Below are positions 5,309 to 61,324 of a stretch of DNA of 64,000 bases, one piece after another. The notes below the pieces were generated by a model. That model did no database searches. It was given only the letters and a program-made list of their open reading frames with translations, and was not told the DNA's origin. The first letter of the stretch is position 1. Each line of letters starts with the position of its first letter. The position numbers and the translations under genes were made by a program. The stretch comes from Luteitalea sp. TBR-22 (GTDB taxonomy: Bacteria > Acidobacteriota > Vicinamibacteria > Vicinamibacterales > Vicinamibacteraceae), in NCBI RefSeq assembly GCF_016865485.1, contig NZ_AP024452.1:496001-560000 (forward strand), in the 5' to 3' direction.

Positions 5309-6160
5309 TCAGAAGACGCGCGACGAGCCGTCGGCAGCCACTCGCCTGACGCGTTGGGCGTTGGTCGACGAGGCCTCCAGCACCCACAGGGCGCCGTCCG
5401 GTGCCACCGCCACTCCGGTCGGCTTCCAGTCGCGCGGGGTGGTGGCGACGGTCGTCACCTGTCCGGCGAGCGACAATCGTCGCACCGCGCCGTCCTCGAA
5501 CGCCGCGACGTACAGCGAGCCATCCGGCCCTACGGCCATGCCCATCACGGCGAGGCGCTCCCGACTTCGGCTCAGCGCCGCCGGCAGCCGCTCGGCGCTC
5601 GCACCGCGGCGGATACGCCACACCACTCCGCCTTCGCTCACGTAGCAGGTGCCGTCGGCCACTACCGTGAGCCACGACTGGTTGGTGAACGCCATGGACG
5701 CCAGTACCTCCGGGCGTGCGTCGGTGGCGGCGCGCGTCATCACGCGCGCCGGTCGTGATCCCTCAATCCAGTAGAGGTGCCGCCGCCCATCACGCGCGAA
5801 CGTGAAGTCGCGGTGGTCCTGCAGGAACCCGGCGCGGTTGGGGATGACGATGCTGATGACCCCGGCTGGGGTGCGCTTCCACACGCGATGCCCCCAGGTA
5901 TTGGTGGCGTCGCCGTTGTACCAGAGGTGTTCGCCGTAGAGCGTGCCGTCGGAGTCGAGCCATAGCTCGTGGGTGTGCACGTCAGGCACGACGACACGGC
6001 GGGTGCCGTCCGGGGCGATGGCCCAGACGCGCTCGGTGTCGCTGTAGTACACCGTGCCCCCCTTGTCGATCACGACGCTCACGGCGGGATGCGCGAGCGC
6101 CGACGAGGCGAGCGGCAACGACAGGAGGACGATGAGGAGTGCCCGAGCGAGTCGCGTCAT
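5309..6160 (-). CDS. Secreted SMP-30/NHL-type beta-propeller protein
   Basis: 283-residue exported protein. The first 23 residues form a signal peptide ending ASSALA. The rest shows repeated strand units such as DGTVY-like, DGSLYVAAF and DGALWVLEA, typical of SMP-30/NHL propellers. ATG 6160 is chosen since the signal peptide starts there; the frame runs further upstream only across the divergent esterase region. First gene of the SDR/GH88 operon. No catalytic role can be assigned; a lactonase or ligand-binding function is possible. Confidence 0.75.
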   Translation of the reverse strand: MTRLARALLIVLLSLPLASSALAHPAVSVVIDKGGTVYYSDTERVWAIAPDGTRRVVVPDVHTHELWLDSDGTLYGEHLWYNGDATNTWGHRVWKRTPAGVISIVIPNRAGFLQDHRDFTFARDGRRHLYWIEGSRPARVMTRAATDARPEVLASMAFTNQSWLTVVADGTCYVSEGGVVWRIRRGASAERLPAALSRSRERLAVMGMAVGPDGSLYVAAFEDGAVRRLSLAGQVTTVATTPRDWKPTGVAVAPDGALWVLEASSTNAQRVRRVAADGSSRVF

Positions 6161-6269
6161 GCCGGCTCCGACGAGGGCTTGCATCCGACCGAGGTGGCCG
6201 CGCACACTCTGCGCCACGCGAAGGGTTTGCGCAAGCGGGAGGACGCACGTGGGGAACAGGCGACAGGCG

Positions 6270-7394
6270 ATGGCTGTCACGGCCGCGGTCGTGGCGATGC
6301 TGATGAGCGGGTGGAAGCTGCTCGGGGCGCAGGGCCAGGTGCCGCCGGCGACGCAGCCGACCGAGGCGCCGCGGCCGCGCCCGACGCCGCCCACCCGACC
6401 CGCGCTGCGCCTGGTGCAGGCGACCGAACTGCCCGACGGCACGTTGCCGCGGCCCACCCAGGACGGCAACTTCATCGTCGGTCCGACGCACGCGCCTGCG
6501 CCGGAGACGATGGCACGCGAGGACGTGCCGAAGGGCACGGTGCACGAGTTCACGTTGACCTCGGGCGAGAGCACCGTCTACCCCGACGGCATCGCCCGCG
6601 ATCCCGGCACGTTCGGGACACCCGACCCGTCGAACCCCGCGAAGCTCGACGTGCCCACCAGTCGCCCGGCGCCGTGGACGCGCAAGGTCACCGTCTTCGT
6701 GCCGGCGCAGTACGTGCGCGGCACGGTGGCGCCCTTCATCGTCGGGGCCGACGGGCCCGACCCGATGCTCTTCACGACGCTCGAGAACCTGATCGCGCAG
6801 AAGCGCATCCCCGTGATGATCGGCATCGCCGTGGCCAACGGCGGCGGCGACGCGCAGGGCAGCCAGCGCGGACGCGAGTACGACACGCTCTCCGGCCGCT
6901 ACGCGGAGTTCATCGAGAACGACGTGCTGCCGCAGGTGGAGAAGCGCTTCGACGTGCGCCTCACGAAGGACCCCGATCAGCGCGCCACGATGGGCTGCAG
7001 TTCAGGCGCGGCCGCGGCGCTCTCGATGGCGTGGTACCGCACCGACCTGTACCACCGCGTCCTGAGCTACTCGGGCACCTTCGTCAACCAGCAGTGGCCG
7101 TGGAACCCGGAGACGCCGCAGGGGGCGTGGGGCTACCACACGACGCTGATCCCGAACACGCCGCGCAAGCCGCTGCGCATCTGGATGCACGTCGGCGACC
7201 GCGACCTCTACAACCCCAACGTCATGCGCGACGACATGCACGACTGGGTCGAGGCCAACGAGCGCATGGCGCAGGCGCTCGCCGCGAAGGGATACCCGTA
7301 CCAGTTCCTGTTCGTGCGCAACGCCGGGCACTGCGACAGGGCAGTGAAGGCGCAGACGCTGCCCACGGCGCTGGAATACGTGTGGGCAAGGTAA
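6270..7394 (+). CDS. Secreted enterochelin-esterase-like alpha/beta hydrolase
   Basis: Serine esterase of the Esterase D / Fes-related group (COG2382-like), 374 residues. After a short hydrophobic N-terminus and a Pro-rich linker, the catalytic domain has the nucleophile elbow GCSSG (Ser near residue 242), an Asp in HVGDRDLYNP and the His in NAGHCDRA. ATG 6270 is chosen to give the export signal (MAVTAAVVAMLMSGWKLLGA); a GTG lies about 20 bases upstream. It diverges from the propeller operon with only 109 bases between start codons. Likely periplasmic, hydrolysing carbohydrate or phenolic esters; the true substrate is not visible. It ends exactly at the left arm of a 54-base inverted repeat. 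Confidence 0.82.
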   Translation: MAVTAAVVAMLMSGWKLLGAQGQVPPATQPTEAPRPRPTPPTRPALRLVQATELPDGTLPRPTQDGNFIVGPTHAPAPETMAREDVPKGTVHEFTLTSGESTVYPDGIARDPGTFGTPDPSNPAKLDVPTSRPAPWTRKVTVFVPAQYVRGTVAPFIVGADGPDPMLFTTLENLIAQKRIPVMIGIAVANGGGDAQGSQRGREYDTLSGRYAEFIENDVLPQVEKRFDVRLTKDPDQRATMGCSSGAAAALSMAWYRTDLYHRVLSYSGTFVNQQWPWNPETPQGAWGYHTTLIPNTPRKPLRIWMHVGDRDLYNPNVMRDDMHDWVEANERMAQALAAKGYPYQFLFVRNAGHCDRAVKAQTLPTALEYVWAR

Positions 7395-7446
7395 GAAGAG
7401 TAGAAGGGTAGAAGGTAAGAAGGCAGGGCGGGAAGGAAGAAGGAAG
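7393..7446 (+). repeat. Left arm of a perfect 54-base inverted repeat (purine-rich)
   Basis: All 54 bases are identical to the reverse complement of 8957-9010. The arm is a run of AAG, TAGAAGG and GGAAGG words that begins inside the esterase stop codon. Confidence 0.92.
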
Positions 7447-7507
7447 AGCAAGGAGCAAGGGGGGAAGGGGAAAGGCGGGGCGCTGAATCGGTTACATAGG
7501 TAACAGA

Positions 7508-8515
7508 GTGGACCGGATGCATGGGTGACAGGTACGAGGGAGGCAGGAGGTCGGTCCTGCGATGCCCTGGAAAGAGACCTGTCCCATGGATCAGCGTGTG
7601 GCGTTCATCGCGGATTGGCTGCGCGAGGGCTGGACGATGACCGAGTTGGCCGCCCGGTACGGCATCAGTCGCAAGACGGCCTACAAGTGGGTCTGCCGGT
7701 AGGAGCCCGAGTCGGCGACGAGGCGCTGCGCCAGCAGCAGCCGACCTGAGGGCCCAAGAGGCTGCGTGCCGTGCTGCATCGGCGGGATCCGGCGACGGCG
7801 TGGCCCGCGGCGAGCACCATCGGCGATCTGCTGCGGCGACGCGGTCTCAGCGCGCCGCAGCGCCGGACGCGCTACCCGGTGCCGCTCACGCAGCCCTTGG
7901 CGGACGCCACCACGCCCAACGACGTGTGGTGCATCGACGTCAAAGGCTGGTCTCGCACGCAGGACGGCACGCGCTGCAAGCTCGGCATCGCCCCTTACCG
8001 GATCACACCCGGGGCGCCCCACTAGAACGGCCGCCACGAGCGCATTCATCTGACCTTGCAGCAGGACACCTGCACACCGCCTGCGCCCACACCACGCGCA
8101 CGGCAGCGGCGTTCCGATGCGCATCGGCGGCTCTTCAACGACGAGTGTCCGCACGAGGCGCTCGAAATGCAGCCACCCGCGACGCGCTATCACTCCTCGC
8201 CCTGCCCCTACCCCCGCGCATCGAGGACCCTTGGTACGAACGCGCAGCACCAGGTCCGCTGCGTCAAACGCTCGGGCCAGATCAGGTGGCTCGCTGCCCG
8301 AGGTGACCGGCGCGGAGAACTGCAGGCGCCCGTCACCACACGGCGGCCTGGCCATCGGGCGTGAAGCCCGCCGGGGCGAACTCGTGGGATTGGCTGACAC
8401 GCCCGACGGGGACTGGCCCGTCCGCTTTCCGCTTTCGCCGGCCTGGCAGGGGCGCCATGTCGCGGCCACGCACCCGTGAAAGGGTCTGGTTCGTTACCCA
8501 TGTCCCCGGTTGCAC
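7508..8515 (+). mobile_element. Degenerate IS481-family insertion sequence
   Basis: About 1.0 kb. Imperfect terminal inverted repeats can be seen at 7508-7533 (GACCGGATGCATGGGTGACA) and, reversed, at 8488-8515, agreeing at roughly two thirds of positions and sharing CATGGGT and ACCGG. Between them lies a broken IS481-type transposase. No clear target duplication was found. The element is dead. Confidence 0.75.
7562..8290 (+). pseudogene. IS481-family transposase remnant
   Basis: The N-terminal HTH piece starts at ATG 7562 (MPWKETCPMDQRVAFI, then ELAARYGISRKTAYKWV) and stops at TAG 7700. A second piece, in another frame, carries ATAWPAASTIGDLLRRRGL and NDVWCIDVKGWSRTQDG, which has the first catalytic Asp of the DDE domain. 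The central catalytic region is deleted. After an in-frame TAG (8023) the same frame goes on with NGRHERIHLTL and CPHEALEMQPPATRY, matching the C-terminal part with the catalytic Glu. Premature stops, a frameshift and the internal deletion mean no active enzyme is made. Confidence 0.88.
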
Positions 8516-8556
8516 AGGGGGAAGTGGCACGGCGCGTGCTGTGAAGACAGAACGCC

Positions 8557-8922
8557 ATGCACACGCGTCGGAGGGATCTGGTTCAGCGGTCGTCCGTGTT
8601 TTCGGGCCGTTTGCTGATGTTCACGGCCGACGAACGCAAGCGCGGCGTGATCCCGCACTCGTTGTTGCAGCAGGCGCTGCGTGCAGGAACTGCGATCGGC
8701 GCGCACAACGCGGAAGCAGATTCTGCAATGACCCGCCGCCATCTCATTGCGCTCAGGGCTGGCGCCCTGCGCGAGGCGCGAGAGGCAGCCTACTGGCTCG
8801 GCCTGATCGACCAATCCCGCCTCTGCGCCAGGGACAGCGACATCTGCTGGCTCCTGAACGAAGCCCACGAACTCGTCGCGATCCTCTCGGCCTCGATCAA
8901 GCGCCTCAGGGATCTCCCTTGA
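8557..8922 (+). CDS. Four-helix-bundle protein (23S rRNA intervening-sequence protein-like)
   Basis: 121-residue helical protein. Residues 38-85 match the conserved core of the four-helix-bundle family (LRAGTAIGAHNAEADSA, then ALREAREAAYWLGLI), and the C-terminus LLNEAHELVAILSASIKRL is also typical. Function unknown; family members form oligomeric bundles, are often multi-copy and can sit in rRNA intervening sequences or beside DGRs, none of which is present here. ATG 8557 gives a full-length protein; ATG 8617 is a shorter alternative. It lies between the IS481 relic and the right arm of the 54-base inverted repeat, so it may have arrived with this segment. Confidence 0.72.
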   Translation: MHTRRRDLVQRSSVFSGRLLMFTADERKRGVIPHSLLQQALRAGTAIGAHNAEADSAMTRRHLIALRAGALREAREAAYWLGLIDQSRLCARDSDICWLLNEAHELVAILSASIKRLRDLP

Positions 8923-8956
8923 CCCCTTCTCCCCTTCTTCCCCTTCTTCCCTTGCC

Positions 8957-9010
8957 CTTCCTTCTTCCTTCCCGCCCTGCCTTCTTACCTTCTACCCTTC
9001 TACTCTTCTT
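8957..9010 (-). repeat. Right arm of the 54-base inverted repeat (pyrimidine-rich on plus strand)
   Basis: Reverse complement of 7393-7446 with no mismatch. Preceded by more CCCTTCTT words and located 12 bases from the stop codon of the minus-strand ATP-grasp gene, so both arms lie at the 3' ends of convergent genes. Confidence 0.92.
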
Positions 9011-9022
9011 CCCTTCCGCTCA

Positions 9023-10561
9023 CTACGCGTGCCCTATTCCTGTCTCGCGCGCCAGCACGTCCAGCGTGCGCGCGTACAGATCCTGCACTTCCTCCGGGCT
9101 GCTCGCGATCACCGTCAGTCCGAGCTTGCCGTACTCCGACAACGCGCCGATCAGGTGGAACAGCACGCCCGACTCCGTCCGGTGCGAATAGTGCAGTCCG
9201 TTGTCGGTGACGATGTCGATCAGGTCCTCGGGGAGCACGCCGCGGTAGGTGGCGGCACGCAGGTTGTCGGTGGCCATGTAGAACTTCGGGCGGCCGCTCA
9301 GCGAGACGAACTCGCCCGTGTCCGGATCCAGCTGGCCGCCCGTGAGGAACTGCAGCGCCAGGAACGGGTGGGTCGTGCCGAGCACGCGCAGGTTGATCTC
9401 CAGCGCCGTCAGCTTCCACGGTTCGTCCACCGACTCGCGATACGCCAGGAAATCCACGCCGAACCGGCTCACCACGCCCTGCCGCGCCAGCGCCTGGCCG
9501 ACCAGGACGCTCCGGTACTGGATCGCCATCCGGTAGTCCTCGTGCGCCGGGAAGCTGCACCCCTGGTACACCTGGCCCGACGGCCCGCCGAGGATCTGAT
9601 CGTGCGTCGAGGTGGGCAGCACCTCGCCGGTCGGGCTGGTGCGCAGCTGCGCCGACGGCGACACCTTGATGGCCGCGTCGATGAACTCCTCGACGATGCC
9701 GCCCATCCGCGTGAACTTCTGGAAGTAGTTGTGGTGCGTCTCCCAGGGCACGGCGAACTCGAGGTTGCGCAAGGCCTTGCGGATCGCCAGGCGGTCGTCG
9801 GCCTGCTCCGGGAACCGGAAGATCGCGTTGCCCTCGCCCGAGAAGCTCTCGTTCAACTTCACGACGGCCTTGCGCAGGCCGGGCCGACGGTGGGCGAGTT
9901 CGACGAGCGCATCCTCGACGTCGGCCTCGCCGGTCAGGTCCTCGAAGCCCTCCGGCAGTTCGACACCGGCCTCCCGGAACACCTTGCGGCTCCCCGACTT
10001 GGTGCCGAGGTAGTTGAGCGTCGGGTCGAGGCCGTTGAGCGGGATGCCGAGCAGCACCGACAGCTTCCGCTCGAGCGGCGTCGAGTTGAACACCGTGAGG
10101 TACGCCCGCGACGGGTCGGGGATCGCCTGCCTGATGCGCTCGATGAGGCGCGGCCGCTCGAGGATCTTCTGCGTGAGCGCGCGCGGCGACGCATCGTACG
10201 TGCACAGCATCGTCAGGCGGGCCCGCGCATGGCTGGCCGGCACGCCGGCGAGCAGGTGCAGGTAGTAGTCGAGGATCAGCGGGTGCACCGGCTGCGACGT
10301 CACGTACACGACGTGGGCGCGCGGGTTGCGCAGGCGGATCAGGAGGAACAGCAGGCGTTCCTCGTAGAACGTGGCGCCATCGAGCTTGCGCAGTTCGTCC
10401 TGATCGAGCGTCAGCGACGGCACCACGACGGAGGTGCCGGGCTGGTCGGCCGTGCGCATCAGCACGTCCCAGACCTGGTTCAGGCGCGGCTTCAGTTCCT
10501 CGAAGCGGCGCAGTTCCTCTTCCGGTGTCAGCGTGGCGGCAAATGGCGGCTGCGGAATCAC
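9023..10561 (-). CDS. ATP-grasp peptide ligase, PGM1-related
   Basis: 512-residue cytoplasmic protein. The C-terminal half has ATP-grasp features: KLNESFSGEGNAIF (nucleotide-binding loop region), GGIVEEFI, a Lys-rich LRTSPTGEVLP, and LTALEINLRVLGTTHP, the Glu-x-Asn metal-binding segment. The N-terminal part (about residues 50-200) resembles the domain in front of Pgm1-type ligases, enzymes that join amino acids to peptides with ATP. The start is GTG 10561, overlapping the TGA of the upstream amidotransferase gene (GTGA), so the two are translationally coupled. The best reading is an ATP-dependent carboxylate-amine ligase supplied with ammonia or an amine by its partner. The product is unknown. 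Confidence 0.78.
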   Translation of the reverse strand: MIPQPPFAATLTPEEELRRFEELKPRLNQVWDVLMRTADQPGTSVVVPSLTLDQDELRKLDGATFYEERLLFLLIRLRNPRAHVVYVTSQPVHPLILDYYLHLLAGVPASHARARLTMLCTYDASPRALTQKILERPRLIERIRQAIPDPSRAYLTVFNSTPLERKLSVLLGIPLNGLDPTLNYLGTKSGSRKVFREAGVELPEGFEDLTGEADVEDALVELAHRRPGLRKAVVKLNESFSGEGNAIFRFPEQADDRLAIRKALRNLEFAVPWETHHNYFQKFTRMGGIVEEFIDAAIKVSPSAQLRTSPTGEVLPTSTHDQILGGPSGQVYQGCSFPAHEDYRMAIQYRSVLVGQALARQGVVSRFGVDFLAYRESVDEPWKLTALEINLRVLGTTHPFLALQFLTGGQLDPDTGEFVSLSGRPKFYMATDNLRAATYRGVLPEDLIDIVTDNGLHYSHRTESGVLFHLIGALSEYGKLGLTVIASSPEEVQDLYARTLDVLARETGIGHA

Positions 10562-11724
10562 AGCGCGGCTCCGAGTTCGTCGAGGGACAGCACTTCGCCG
10601 GTGGCGAGCATCGCCAGCGGCGTGGTGCGTTCGTGCAGCGGCCACGGCCGCCCGAGGCGCTCGGCGGCACGCCGCAGGCGTCGGCCCAGATGGTAGCGAA
10701 GGGGGCCGTGCAGGGAGAAGCTCGAGGTGAGTGCCAGCTGTTGCTCGCCCGCGCGGTCGTCGAGCGTCTCCATCAGCGTCCGGCGCCGCTCCTCGTACCA
10801 GGTGTCGTCGATCTTGCCCGCGGCGTGCCGCCGGCGCAGCAGCGACAGCTGCCGCGGGCGGTTGACGATCTCGGGATGGTGGTTGACGCCGAGGATGCGC
10901 GGCATGCCGTCGGCCACGTCGCGGGCGACTTCCAGCATGGTCAGCGCCGGCCCGACCGGCCCGCCGACGCCGATCGTCTCGTAACCGATCGCCTGCATGT
11001 GCGCAGGTAGTGGACCTGCCGGCAGCAGGTCGTACAGCCGGCTGTCGAGCACGGCGATGCGCTGCGACGGGCCCGCCTGCGTGCTCAGGTACCGGAACCA
11101 CGGGTGCTCGCGTGCGGCCGGCGTCAGCGCGTTCTCCATGATGCCGGCGCTCTTGCCGCCCTTCTCCGGGCCGCGCAGGTGCGCGTCGGCGACGCCGAGC
11201 CAGCGGCACATGATGCCGAAGGTGTGGCAGATGCCGAGCAGCACGCCCTCGGGATGGGTGCGGAGCTGGTCGAACAGGCCGAACACCTGCGGCTCCCAGG
11301 CGGGATCCTCGACGATGCCCTGGCTGCCGGCGCTGCAGCCGTCGTTGCGGCGCGGGTCGAGGTGACCGGGGCCGCCCGTCCCGATGCAGAGCAGGCCGTC
11401 GCGGTCGTGCACGTCGGGCGTGCCGCCGTGCCTGCGGACGTCGTAGGACGAGACGCGGACACGCAGGCCGGCCTCCGAGAGCGCCTCGCGCAGGTCGCAC
11501 ACCACCTGGCGCAGCGAGCGCACCACGGCAGCGTGCCCGAGGTTGGGCCAGCCGTGGTTCATGTCGAGGATGGCGACCTCCACCGTGCCCTCCTCGGCCA
11601 TGGGGGCATCGTCATGGGTGTTGACCCGCTGGTAGATGAACCCGCTCGTCGGGTGCCGCGTCGGGCAATCGGCCACGCAGGCGTCGTGCCCGTAAGCGTA
11701 CTGATGGCGGCAGTCGAAGGGCAC
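10558..11724 (-). CDS. Class I glutamine amidotransferase-like protein
   Basis: 388 residues from GTG 11724. A class I GATase fold is shown by LLGICHTFGIMCRW (nucleophile Cys near residue 166) and the NHHPEIV His/Glu pair near residue 280. The C-terminus carries an extra domain of about 100 residues. The N-terminal 40 residues carry three Cys at about 5, 16 and 20 (C-X10-C-X3-C), which could bind a metal. If this part is not translated, ATG 11601 (MAEEGTVEVAIL) is the alternative start; ATG 11793 is also open but lies in repeat-like DNA. It overlaps the ATP-grasp gene by four bases, so it probably provides NH3 or removes a gamma-glutamyl group for that ligase. Confidence 0.75.
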   Translation of the reverse strand: MPFDCRHQYAYGHDACVADCPTRHPTSGFIYQRVNTHDDAPMAEEGTVEVAILDMNHGWPNLGHAAVVRSLRQVVCDLREALSEAGLRVRVSSYDVRRHGGTPDVHDRDGLLCIGTGGPGHLDPRRNDGCSAGSQGIVEDPAWEPQVFGLFDQLRTHPEGVLLGICHTFGIMCRWLGVADAHLRGPEKGGKSAGIMENALTPAAREHPWFRYLSTQAGPSQRIAVLDSRLYDLLPAGPLPAHMQAIGYETIGVGGPVGPALTMLEVARDVADGMPRILGVNHHPEIVNRPRQLSLLRRRHAAGKIDDTWYEERRRTLMETLDDRAGEQQLALTSSFSLHGPLRYHLGRRLRRAAERLGRPWPLHERTTPLAMLATGEVLSLDELGAAL

Positions 11725-22792: not shown

Positions 22793-22795
22793 GCC

Positions 22796-22830
22796 GGGAA
22801 TCGGGAGTCGGGAATCGGGAGTCGGGAGTC
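22796..22830. repeat. Heptamer tandem repeat, GGGAGTC/GGGAATC (5 units)
   Basis: GGGAATC, GGGAGTC, GGGAATC, GGGAGTC, GGGAGTC with no spacer, four bases after the stop codon of the preceding gene. The remaining 170 bases to the next gene have no other clear feature apart from the GGAGG ribosome site before 23000. Confidence 0.9.
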
Positions 22831-22999
22831 GAAGGGCTTCCCCGAGACTCGGCCGTCGCGCCCCTCGCGGCGGTCACCTCGCCTCTCGCTCGTCACGCGC
22901 GTGCGCCGCGCCGTCCCTGCGCCCTTCCTGATCGCGTAATAACCCGAACGCTCGCGCTCGCGCCTCGTCTCCTCTGCCACATCCATCACGGAGGACTCG

Positions 23000-40929: not shown

Positions 40930-42054
<1,125 letters not shown>

Positions 42055-50686: not shown

Positions 50687-50728
50687 CGGCGCCCGGTGCC
50701 CGGCGCCCGGTGCCCGGTGCCCGGTCCC
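50687..50728. repeat. Heptamer tandem repeat, CGGTGCC family (6 units)
   Basis: CGGCGCC, CGGTGCC, CGGCGCC, CGGTGCC, CGGTGCC, CGGTCCC without spacers. The last base is the first base of the M28 peptidase stop codon (minus strand TAG at 50730-50728). Again a gene end. Confidence 0.9.
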
Positions 50729-59012: not shown

Positions 59013-59091
59013 CAATTTGAAGTTTGAAATTCGAAATGTCGGCGCGCCGGCTACGCCCCGCCGAGAATTTCAAATTTCAAATTTCAAATTG
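59013..59091. repeat. AT-rich inverted heptamer element (ATTTCAA units)
   Basis: Left arm 59013-59038 and right arm 59065-59091, the latter an almost perfect tandem of ATTTCAA. The arms pair over about 26 bases with three mismatches around a GC-rich 26-base centre. It exactly fills the gap between the TonB receptor stop and the facing pcnB stop, and would form a large hairpin in either transcript. Confidence 0.9.
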
Positions 59092-60467: not shown

Positions 60468-61295
60468 ATGGAAGCACTTACTGATTTCGCGCGAGCTGCG
60501 ATGCTCGTCGTCCTGCTGGGGGCCGTCGCGCCGGCCGCGGCGCAGCCGGCCGCCACCGACCCGCTCGCCCGAGCCCGGCAGCTGTACAACAGCGGCAAGT
60601 ACGACGAGGCCGTGAGCGCGGCCCGCGAGGCGGCGGCGCGCCCCGGAGCCCGCCCGGAAGCCAGCCTGTTGCTCGGTCGGGCGCTGCTCGAGCGCCACCG
60701 GGCCAGTCGTGCCCCCGAGGACCTGGTGGATGGCCGCGCCGCCCTGCGCGGAGTGGCGGCGGCGGGACTCGACGACCGCGGCCGGGTCGATCTGGTAGTC
60801 GGCCTCGGCGAGGCGCTCTACCTCGACGGCCAGTACCGCTCCGCGGCCGCGATGCTGGAGCCGGTGCTCGAGCAGATGGGCCTGTTGGCGCCCGAGGGCC
60901 GCGAGCAGGTGCTCGACTGGTGGGCGACGGCGATGGATCGGCACGCGCAGACGCGCGGCCCCGACGAGCGCCCGGCCATCTATCACGACATCTCGGACCG
61001 GCTCTCGCGGCACCTCGCGCGCTACCCCGACTCGGCGGCGGCATCCTACTGGCTGCCGGCGTCGGCCCTGGCGCGCGGCGACCTCGAACTGGCATGGGAC
61101 CTCGCCGTGGCCGGCTGGGTGCGCTCCACGCTGGCGCCCGGCGCCGGCGTCACCCTGCGCGCCGACCTCGATCGCCTCGTGACTACCGCCCTGATCCCCG
61201 AGCGCGTCAAGCGCATGGTCGACGAGCCCGACGCGGGATCGGCCAGCGCACGCTTCACCGCCGAGTGGGACGAGGCCAAGGGACGGTGGAAGTGA
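60468..61295 (+). CDS. Secreted TPR-like protein
   Basis: 275 residues. Signal peptide with AMLVVLLGAVAPAAAQ. Helical repeats follow: ARQLYNSGKYDEAVSAAREAAAR, ASLLLGRALLERHRA, LVVGLGEALYLDGQYRSAAAMLEPVLEQ. These suit a periplasmic scaffold protein; no partner is known. ATG 60468 is chosen; GTG 60444 would add eight residues. Divergent from pcnB with only 51 bases between starts. Its stop TGA is the first part of a TGAC-GTTTAAC repeat. Confidence 0.75.
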   Translation: MEALTDFARAAMLVVLLGAVAPAAAQPAATDPLARARQLYNSGKYDEAVSAAREAAARPGARPEASLLLGRALLERHRASRAPEDLVDGRAALRGVAAAGLDDRGRVDLVVGLGEALYLDGQYRSAAAMLEPVLEQMGLLAPEGREQVLDWWATAMDRHAQTRGPDERPAIYHDISDRLSRHLARYPDSAAASYWLPASALARGDLELAWDLAVAGWVRSTLAPGAGVTLRADLDRLVTTALIPERVKRMVDEPDAGSASARFTAEWDEAKGRWK

Positions 61296-61296
61296 C

Positions 61297-61324
61297 GTTT
61301 AACGTTTGACGTTTGACGTTTGAC
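61297..61324. repeat. Heptamer tandem repeat, GTTTGAC family (4 units)
   Basis: GTTTAAC, GTTTGAC, GTTTGAC, GTTTGAC, preceded by TGAC, whose TGA is the stop codon of the TPR gene. Same family as 40930-40965, 20 kb away. Confidence 0.92.

Follow-up and report, generated by a model that had tools for sequence, protein, structure and literature searches.

Why does a gene for a four-helix-bundle (4HB) protein lie between two long, perfectly inverted repeat arms? The question is raised by a locus in a stretch of 64,000 nucleotides (here, the window) from Luteitalea sp. TBR-22, positions 496,001 to 560,000 of contig NZ_AP024452.1. The genome of the window, G000, is one contig of 6,468,984 bp and is 100% complete. 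We compared it at this locus with the sister species G001 and G004 and with two further species, G002 and G003. We think it probable that this is the master locus of a family of REPIN-like hairpins, the one that bears the gene, and the 4HB protein is probably the partner of that family. The parts concerned are these:

7380..7480, plus strand: left purine-rich array arm, with a perfect 54-bp part at 7393-7446
7418..7436, plus strand: species-specific core AGAAGGCAGGGCGGGAAGG (G000:C1:503418-503436)
8557..8922, plus strand: 4HB gene (TIGR02436, S23/IVP-like), 121 amino acids
8923..9023, minus strand: right array arm, inverted and pyrimidine-rich on the plus strand, with its perfect part at 8957-9010
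8967..8985, minus strand: second copy of the core (G000:C1:504967-504985)

The inverted repeat and its gene

The bases at 7393-7446 are the exact reverse complement of those at 8957-9010, which confirms the perfect 54-base inverted repeat described in an earlier note on this DNA. A longer imperfect pair, 7380-7480 and 8923-9023, encloses these arms and is 82% complementary. Base composition alone would yield about 3e-20 such exact pairs of 54-mers in 64 kb, and a chance repeat is thereby ruled out. Divided by eye, the left arm passes from octamers (AGAAGAGT, AGAAGGGT and AGAAGGTA) through the core to units of 7-8 bases; the right arm begins directly after the stop codon of the 4HB gene. Searches of Rfam gave no match with E up to 1 across 7300-9100 and none at gathering scores in eight 4HB loci, so a known RNA family was rejected.

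The window protein passes TIGR02436 with 47 bits (cut-off 24), in agreement with the four-helix-bundle gene recognised in the earlier note, and the gene belongs with the arms. It stays below the gathering score of PF05635 (23S_rRNA_IVP; 26.7 versus 33.8 bits, E 6.6e-6), a related family. G000 holds six 4HB matches, the window gene being one of them. G000, G001 and G004 share a 4HB gene at this position; in G002 a relative lies some 4 kb off the same right neighbour. The dN/dS ratio was 0.29-0.39 over six pairs from four species, and the protein appears by this measure to be under purifying selection.

Dispersed hairpins in the genome

A 61-base arm query gave 49 matches in G000 at E up to 10. 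With at most one mismatch the core AGAAGGCAGRGCGGGAAGG occurred at 38 places, and its reversed control at none; the arm is thus far from unique. With at most three mismatches there were 47 places, against 16 for the reversed control. In the set of 42 places obtained with up to two mismatches, 28 make up 14 inverted pairs, counted from the listing, with the purine arm first, and the remaining 14 show one recognisable arm only. In the 13 pairs besides that of the window the arms are separated by 28-105 bases, which leaves no room for a 4HB gene, and most arms in G000 lie at places without one. The 14 pairs have the form that is typical of REPINs, dispersed inverted repeat pairs with diverse spacers.

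Arms that follow the species

At the 4HB locus of G001 the arms carry a different core, with the pattern AAGACAGAAYCGAAGG. At up to one mismatch this pattern was found at 16 places in G001, ten of which form five inverted pairs, at 4 in G004 and at none in G000 or G003 (the reversed control gave 0, except for 1 in G003). The G000 core, present at 38 places in its own genome, occurred at none in G001 and at one in G004. In G000 and G001, then, the arms of the 4HB locus match the dispersed hairpins of their own species and differ between the species.

The same tendency was seen in arm identity, compared among 21 arms (25 minus four spurious ones dropped by eye, with left and right assigned by hand). 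Arms from other places of the same species were 0.838 identical on average (60 pairs) and paired arms within a place 0.817 (7 pairs), whereas the value was 0.684 for the same place in another species (14 pairs) and 0.670 for another place in another species (117 pairs). The within-species excess was reached by 7 of 2000 label permutations. Several hairpin places are common to species (L009/L235, L026/L242/L225, L033/L238, L010/L231 and L018/L221). These comparisons show concerted change between G000 and G001. The earlier note, which named conversion among its explanations of the likeness of the two arms, was right in that the arms do look held alike by some homogenising process.

Neighbouring genes and a role for the host

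Homogenisation could be the work of the host, and host gene conversion with the 4HB gene as a lodger is the main rival to our explanation. The host would run these sequences as REP-like 3'-end hairpins, acting in mRNA 3' ends, termination or supercoiling; gene conversion after palindrome breakage would keep them alike, and the 4HB gene would be a passenger. The genes beside the window locus are:

6054..7394, plus strand: left neighbour, Esterase family gene (PF00756), start codon not fixed
9023..11500, minus strand: right neighbour, ATP-grasp/PGM1_C gene, true start not fixed

The esterase stop codon (end 7394, plus strand) touches the left arm and the ATP-grasp/PGM1_C stop adjoins the right arm (end 9023, minus strand), so the neighbours are convergent and the arms sit at their 3' ends, as had been noted earlier. 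We placed 27 hairpin sites in their gene order with our own simple, crude codon-usage gene caller: 14 were convergent, 7 plus 1 tandem, 4 divergent and 1 undecided. The convergent share (14/27) compares with 31 of 168 adjacent gene pairs in the fetched stretches (p 0.0004), which speaks for hairpins run by the host. So do the folding of the one hairpin tested as RNA (z -5.0) and the sharing of several sites between species, which fits conversion in place; moreover, neither a transposase nor a reverse transcriptase would be needed. The evidence on the other side comes from 4HB genes of other bacteria, described below.

A late IS481-like insertion

One further element separates the left arm from the 4HB gene:

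7484..8514, plus strand: IS481-like insertion sequence, 1031 bases, with broken frames

Its 57-residue piece (7529-7699) matches HTH_23 above the cut-off; the 91-residue piece (7750-8022) has no profile match at E 0.1. A sister copy in L071 scores 44.2 bits with rve (cut-off 32.6) and is a weak match to NF033577 IS481 (43.5 bits, cut-off 224). This second copy (L071:7380-8540) lies inside the inner array of another family member, beside GGGGGAAG as in the window; arrays may be a target of IS481.

The insertion is absent from this place in both sister species. G001 has the arms and the 4HB gene without it, and in G004, which is without the left arm as well, window position 7398 joins 8514 with one base between. 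We conclude that IS481 arrived late, landing after the left arm and before the 4HB gene, and that the 1.6-kb segment is therefore not an old unit. Without the insertion the locus consists of an array, a TIGR02436 4HB gene and an inverted array.

The earlier note had treated the bounded 1.6 kb as one unit, a mobile or invertible segment with 54-bp ends, which IS481 or a recombinase would have moved. The perfect inverted ends speak for such a segment, but the ends of IS481 itself, at 7484 and 8514, differ from the arms (by eye) and lie inside them, a sister copy is found in another array of the family, and G001 has the arms and the gene at this place with no IS481. In addition, the genes identified in the segment, whose other open reading frames (ORFs) lay outside the scan, are the broken IS481 and the 4HB gene only. 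The claim of a single unit thus fell with the dating of the insertion, and we consider a moving segment of this kind very improbable. Nothing in the assembled sequences compared, with no sequencing reads among them, shows an inversion of 7447-8956. Two related candidates were rejected: a composite or invertible IS481 segment, because IS481 is late and has its own ends, and a miniature inverted-repeat transposable element of IS481, because the ends of the arms do not match those of IS481.

4HB genes and repeat arrays across bacteria

Inverted flanks are not peculiar to the window. Within the same order we examined 30 loci, 5 of them in G000 and 25 in other genomes; 16 had inverted flanks beyond the 2% cross-locus level, with units that vary from locus to locus. 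We then turned to a multi-phylum set, the best 80 of at least 585 confirmed 4HB loci from a scan of named genomes, of which 71 could be used for the flank test and 9 were dropped because their flanks were too short. When 300 bp on either side of the gene were compared and a score of at least 36 was taken as a pass, 53 of the 71 loci, from many phyla, had inverted flanks. The same score was reached by 8 of 2096 upstream/downstream pairs taken from different loci, by 2 of 1101 comparisons elsewhere in the same loci and by 1 of 202 other ORFs of 70-250 amino acids.

The flanks are built of short tandem units. Of 77 arrays within 500 bp of the gene, 52 had period 7, 17 period 14, 6 period 8 and 2 period 6, and at least one array lay within that distance in 49 of the 80 loci (counted from the listing). 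Arrays are concentrated near the gene: 77 in 76.6 kb, compared with 68 in 635 kb beyond 1 kb. The median array has 4.4 copies (146 arrays; few with under 3 copies are detectable). Aligned by rotation, 55 units gave a profile of roughly G-T-C-A-G-T/G-G/A, with a log-likelihood of 165.9 against 138.2 for the mean of a letter-shuffled null (sd 5.6, maximum 155.4 of 40). Arrays at a greater distance, in the stretch taken around each 4HB gene, repeated the unit of their own locus exactly in 11 of 50 cases, and that of other loci in 0.6%. A scan for purine tracts was weak as a general marker, other loci using different units, and the inverted-score and period tests were used instead. A Phycisphaerae 4HB gene (L128:5900-6000) has an upstream array of ATCAGTT, which after rotation is the reverse complement of TAACTGA, the Beggiatoaceae/cyanobacterial heptamer (PMC4679880; papers are cited here by PMC number, each for a part of its text).

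Host-run hairpins predict neither the inverted flanks at 4HB genes of many phyla (53/71 versus 1/202 other ORFs) nor a shared unit profile. This rival is weakened because it leaves the association of 4HB genes and repeats across phyla unexplained, and we think it unlikely.

Filled and empty sites

Some plasmids carry such an insert and related ones lack it. In Nostoc edaphicum a 4HB gene with AGTAGGG arrays splits nrdB/nrdA and is antisense to both; in Calothrix sp. NIES-4105 nrdB and nrdA are adjacent, with no insert. In Nostoc C052 and N. edaphicum a TraM-like gene is followed by a unit whose arrays read AGGGAAC/CTGTTCC; two C057 plasmids and UHCC 0926 lack this unit there. At the same place ATCC 53789 (L203) has an array-bearing hairpin in which no ORF is annotated, and other sequence stands in L204, a third plasmid of C057, and in L207, a further one of ATCC 53789. 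By eye, the plasmid inserts end at arrays, filled sites lack some 15-45 bases that the empty site has, and no target duplication was established.

Two further plasmid units were seen. In Anabaena sp. 90 (L197:2580-3420) a 4HB unit with an array of about 270 bp occupies the gap from cas6 to cas4 in a type I-D CRISPR operon; in Dolichospermum UHCC 0315A that gap holds a different repeat. In a Geminocystis plasmid (L198:2794-3851) one lies between AAA ATPase and ParB genes.

An element selfish at the level of RNA, like the intervening sequences (IVS) of 23S rRNA, would have its array-4HB-array transcript folded out and cut by RNase III, the repeats being only a stem. The IVS of Coxiella does contain an ORF of the S23 family, terminal inverted repeats and tandem GACAGAT heptamers before the ORF (PMC4990558), and arm polarity is constant in our set, the 5' arm being G-rich in 51 of the 53 passing loci. 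The window and plasmid units, however, sit between protein genes, the N. edaphicum unit is antisense to nrdB/nrdA, and most arms in G000 lie at places without a 4HB gene; this explanation seems to us improbable.

A second repeat family in the genome

CGGGAGT arrays flank another 4HB gene of G000 (L001) and one of G004 (L111). Three such units in a row, with at most two mismatches and overlaps counted, occurred 606 times in G000, 190 in G001, 141 in G004 and 24 in G003, and at most 28 times in each of the other 56 genomes; the reversed control reached 6 in G000 and 36 in G016. Among the matches listed for G001:C1, exact CGGGAGT lay mostly on the minus strand below about 2.5 Mb and on the plus strand from about 4.2 to 5.9 Mb, as if its orientation followed the replichore.

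The window has heptamer arrays of its own at 22795-22831 (CGGGAGT), 40930-41051, 50687-50725, 59066-59090 and 61295-61324. The units of these arrays are CGGGAGT, GTTTGAC, TCCCGCC/TCCCGAC, CGGTGCC, AATTTCA and ACGTTTG; by eye, CGGGAGT and AATTTCA match units beside other 4HB genes of G000.

How the hairpins might spread

In the explanation that we favour, the 4HB protein, a pentamer in one solved relative, would bind the unit of the repeats in their hairpin form, as DNA or RNA. Either directly or by bringing in host repair, the bound protein would seed new hairpins, and old hairpins could be converted to the current version in the same way. The solved relatives 2gsc (XCC0516 of Xanthomonas, which matches the 4HB family) and 2rld have five chains each, and the XCC0516 protein is described as a pentamer of four-helix bundles (PMC4990558). 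More tentatively, we propose that TIGR02436 4HB proteins could be the agents of selfish or domesticated repeats throughout bacteria: a pentameric ring, holding one 7-nucleotide unit per subunit, might copy or convert hairpins in trans. Such proteins, and not slippage alone, would then have made the heptamer arrays of Xanthomonas, Nostoc and other bacteria, and the IVS of 23S rRNA would be a copy that landed in rRNA. A phage origin was rejected on the result for L095, an order-level 4HB protein used in place of the window protein: a search of 50,697 phage records with a limit of E 1e-5 left L095 unmatched.

Several observations weigh against a 4HB protein that keeps a species' hairpins alike. 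At the locus itself, a 4HB gene is lacking in G003. The earlier note had named as points against its reading a lack of other arm copies and an arrangement fixed in all relatives; the outcome is mixed, since the arm has many other copies and the gene stands at this place in G001 and G004 but not in G003. The G001 copy has an internal deletion, with 20 residues missing, though its hairpin family is dispersed. The cores are not strictly confined either: AAGACAGAAYCGAAGG also occurs at 1 place in G002, 3 in G006 and 1 in G007, and in G004 the lone G000-core copy is found some 1.5 kb upstream of the 4HB gene. The picture in G004 is mixed: the version of its own 4HB locus recurs once, and two places carry that of G001; in G002 the version at the 4HB locus was found by eye at one further site, on which the case of that species rests. 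G002 and G004 thus add thin support for arms proper to each species. The G001 and G004 sites were found by way of the core itself, which favours likeness within species. Finally, where G000 has a hairpin (site 411667), G001 has a different, GAACGCC-like array (L245, G001:C1:463929-464484), as if hairpin sites could change family.

The wider survey has exceptions of its own. The inverted-repeat threshold was missed by 18 of the 71 named loci, the direct orientation passed in 8 of 71, and 31 of the 80 loci had no array within 500 bp. G009 has 11 places with the CGGGAGT triple and no 4HB match at E <= 1e-8. Mirroring of the arms unit by unit was significant in the window (a fraction of 0.0015 of 2000 shuffles, for arms picked for being perfect) and at p <= 0.05 in none of 41 other rows, one locus being entered twice, in a test of low power since arrays hold few distinct units; it was rejected as a general rule. 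Profile scans judged at E <= 1e-6 also gave two matches to RVT_1 (PF00078) in G002, and G001 has one partial match to Y1_Tnp (PF01797) above the family cut-off.

These last matches concern another possibility, that the hairpins are copied by an enzyme encoded elsewhere, either a reverse transcriptase or a Y1 transposase of the RAYT kind, and that the 4HB protein is accessory to it, like Avd in diversity-generating retroelements. Avd does resemble PF05635 (PMC10053308), and the architecture parallels REPIN/RAYT (PMC8049555). Yet RVT_1 found no match in G000, G001, G003 or G004, nor Y1_Tnp in G000, G002, G003 or G004, at the same E value. On these grounds we rejected a reverse transcriptase acting in trans, the RAYT model and, with 0 matches to PF00078 in G000, a diversity-generating retroelement. 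In the single, complete contig of G000 an enzyme in trans is largely refuted, and we give it hardly any credence; the enzyme may have been lost in the past or be too divergent for these models.

Comparison with known systems

What 4HB/S23 proteins do and how heptameric intergenic repeats arose have been separate questions; they are tied together here because 53 of 71 4HB loci have inverted flanks and the three inverted controls stay at or below 0.5%. Given the link, both can be addressed by one experiment, and if the 4HB protein is the agent, repeats would propagate without a known transposase or reverse transcriptase. A published screen lists the 4HB family among CRISPR-linked genes (PMC10910872), and the unit of Anabaena sp. 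90, sitting between cas6 and cas4, offers a simple reading of that listing.

The STRR of cyanobacteria are heptameric intergenic repeats. Xanthomonas has GGGAATC and Nostoc GGGGA(C/T)T, forming 70 and 75 inverted pairs in two Xanthomonas genomes and few in Nostoc (PMC4692102), and TAACTGA occurs in Beggiatoaceae and cyanobacteria (PMC4679880). The arrays described here resemble the Xanthomonas and Nostoc heptamers in their 7-base unit and mostly intergenic position. The parts of these papers covered here state no 4HB link, 'S23' occurs 0 times in the two main texts, and the main text of the heptamer-repeat paper does not mention XCC0516. Within the open-licence literature, preprints lying outside it, and for the portions of text covered, we found no publication that ties 4HB/S23 genes to heptamer or inverted arrays. 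What we did not find in print is thus the link between 4HB genes and repeat arrays across phyla; heptamers, REPIN/RAYT and IVS were already known.

Like the window unit, the IVS of 23S rRNA is a 4HB ORF inside terminal inverted repeats, with heptamers before the ORF in Coxiella (PMC4990558). Unlike it, the window unit lies between esterase and ATP-grasp genes and not in rRNA, and its family has ORF-less arms dispersed through the genome. Avd resembles PF05635 (PMC10053308) but works with a reverse transcriptase, and none was found in G000.

A close parallel is REPIN/RAYT, in which the RAYT gene is flanked by its own repeats. REPINs are inverted repeat pairs with diverse spacers, lying between genes, and a vertically inherited gene is tied to them (PMC8049555). 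The window family likewise combines dispersed inverted pairs with a vertically inherited gene at one place in G000, G001 and G004. It differs in that the gene encodes a four-helix bundle and not a tyrosine transposase, and in that the repeats linked to 4HB genes are arrays of 7-8 base units. By analogy, the window system appears to work like REPIN/RAYT while not being a member of it, because G000 has no Y1 transposase match.

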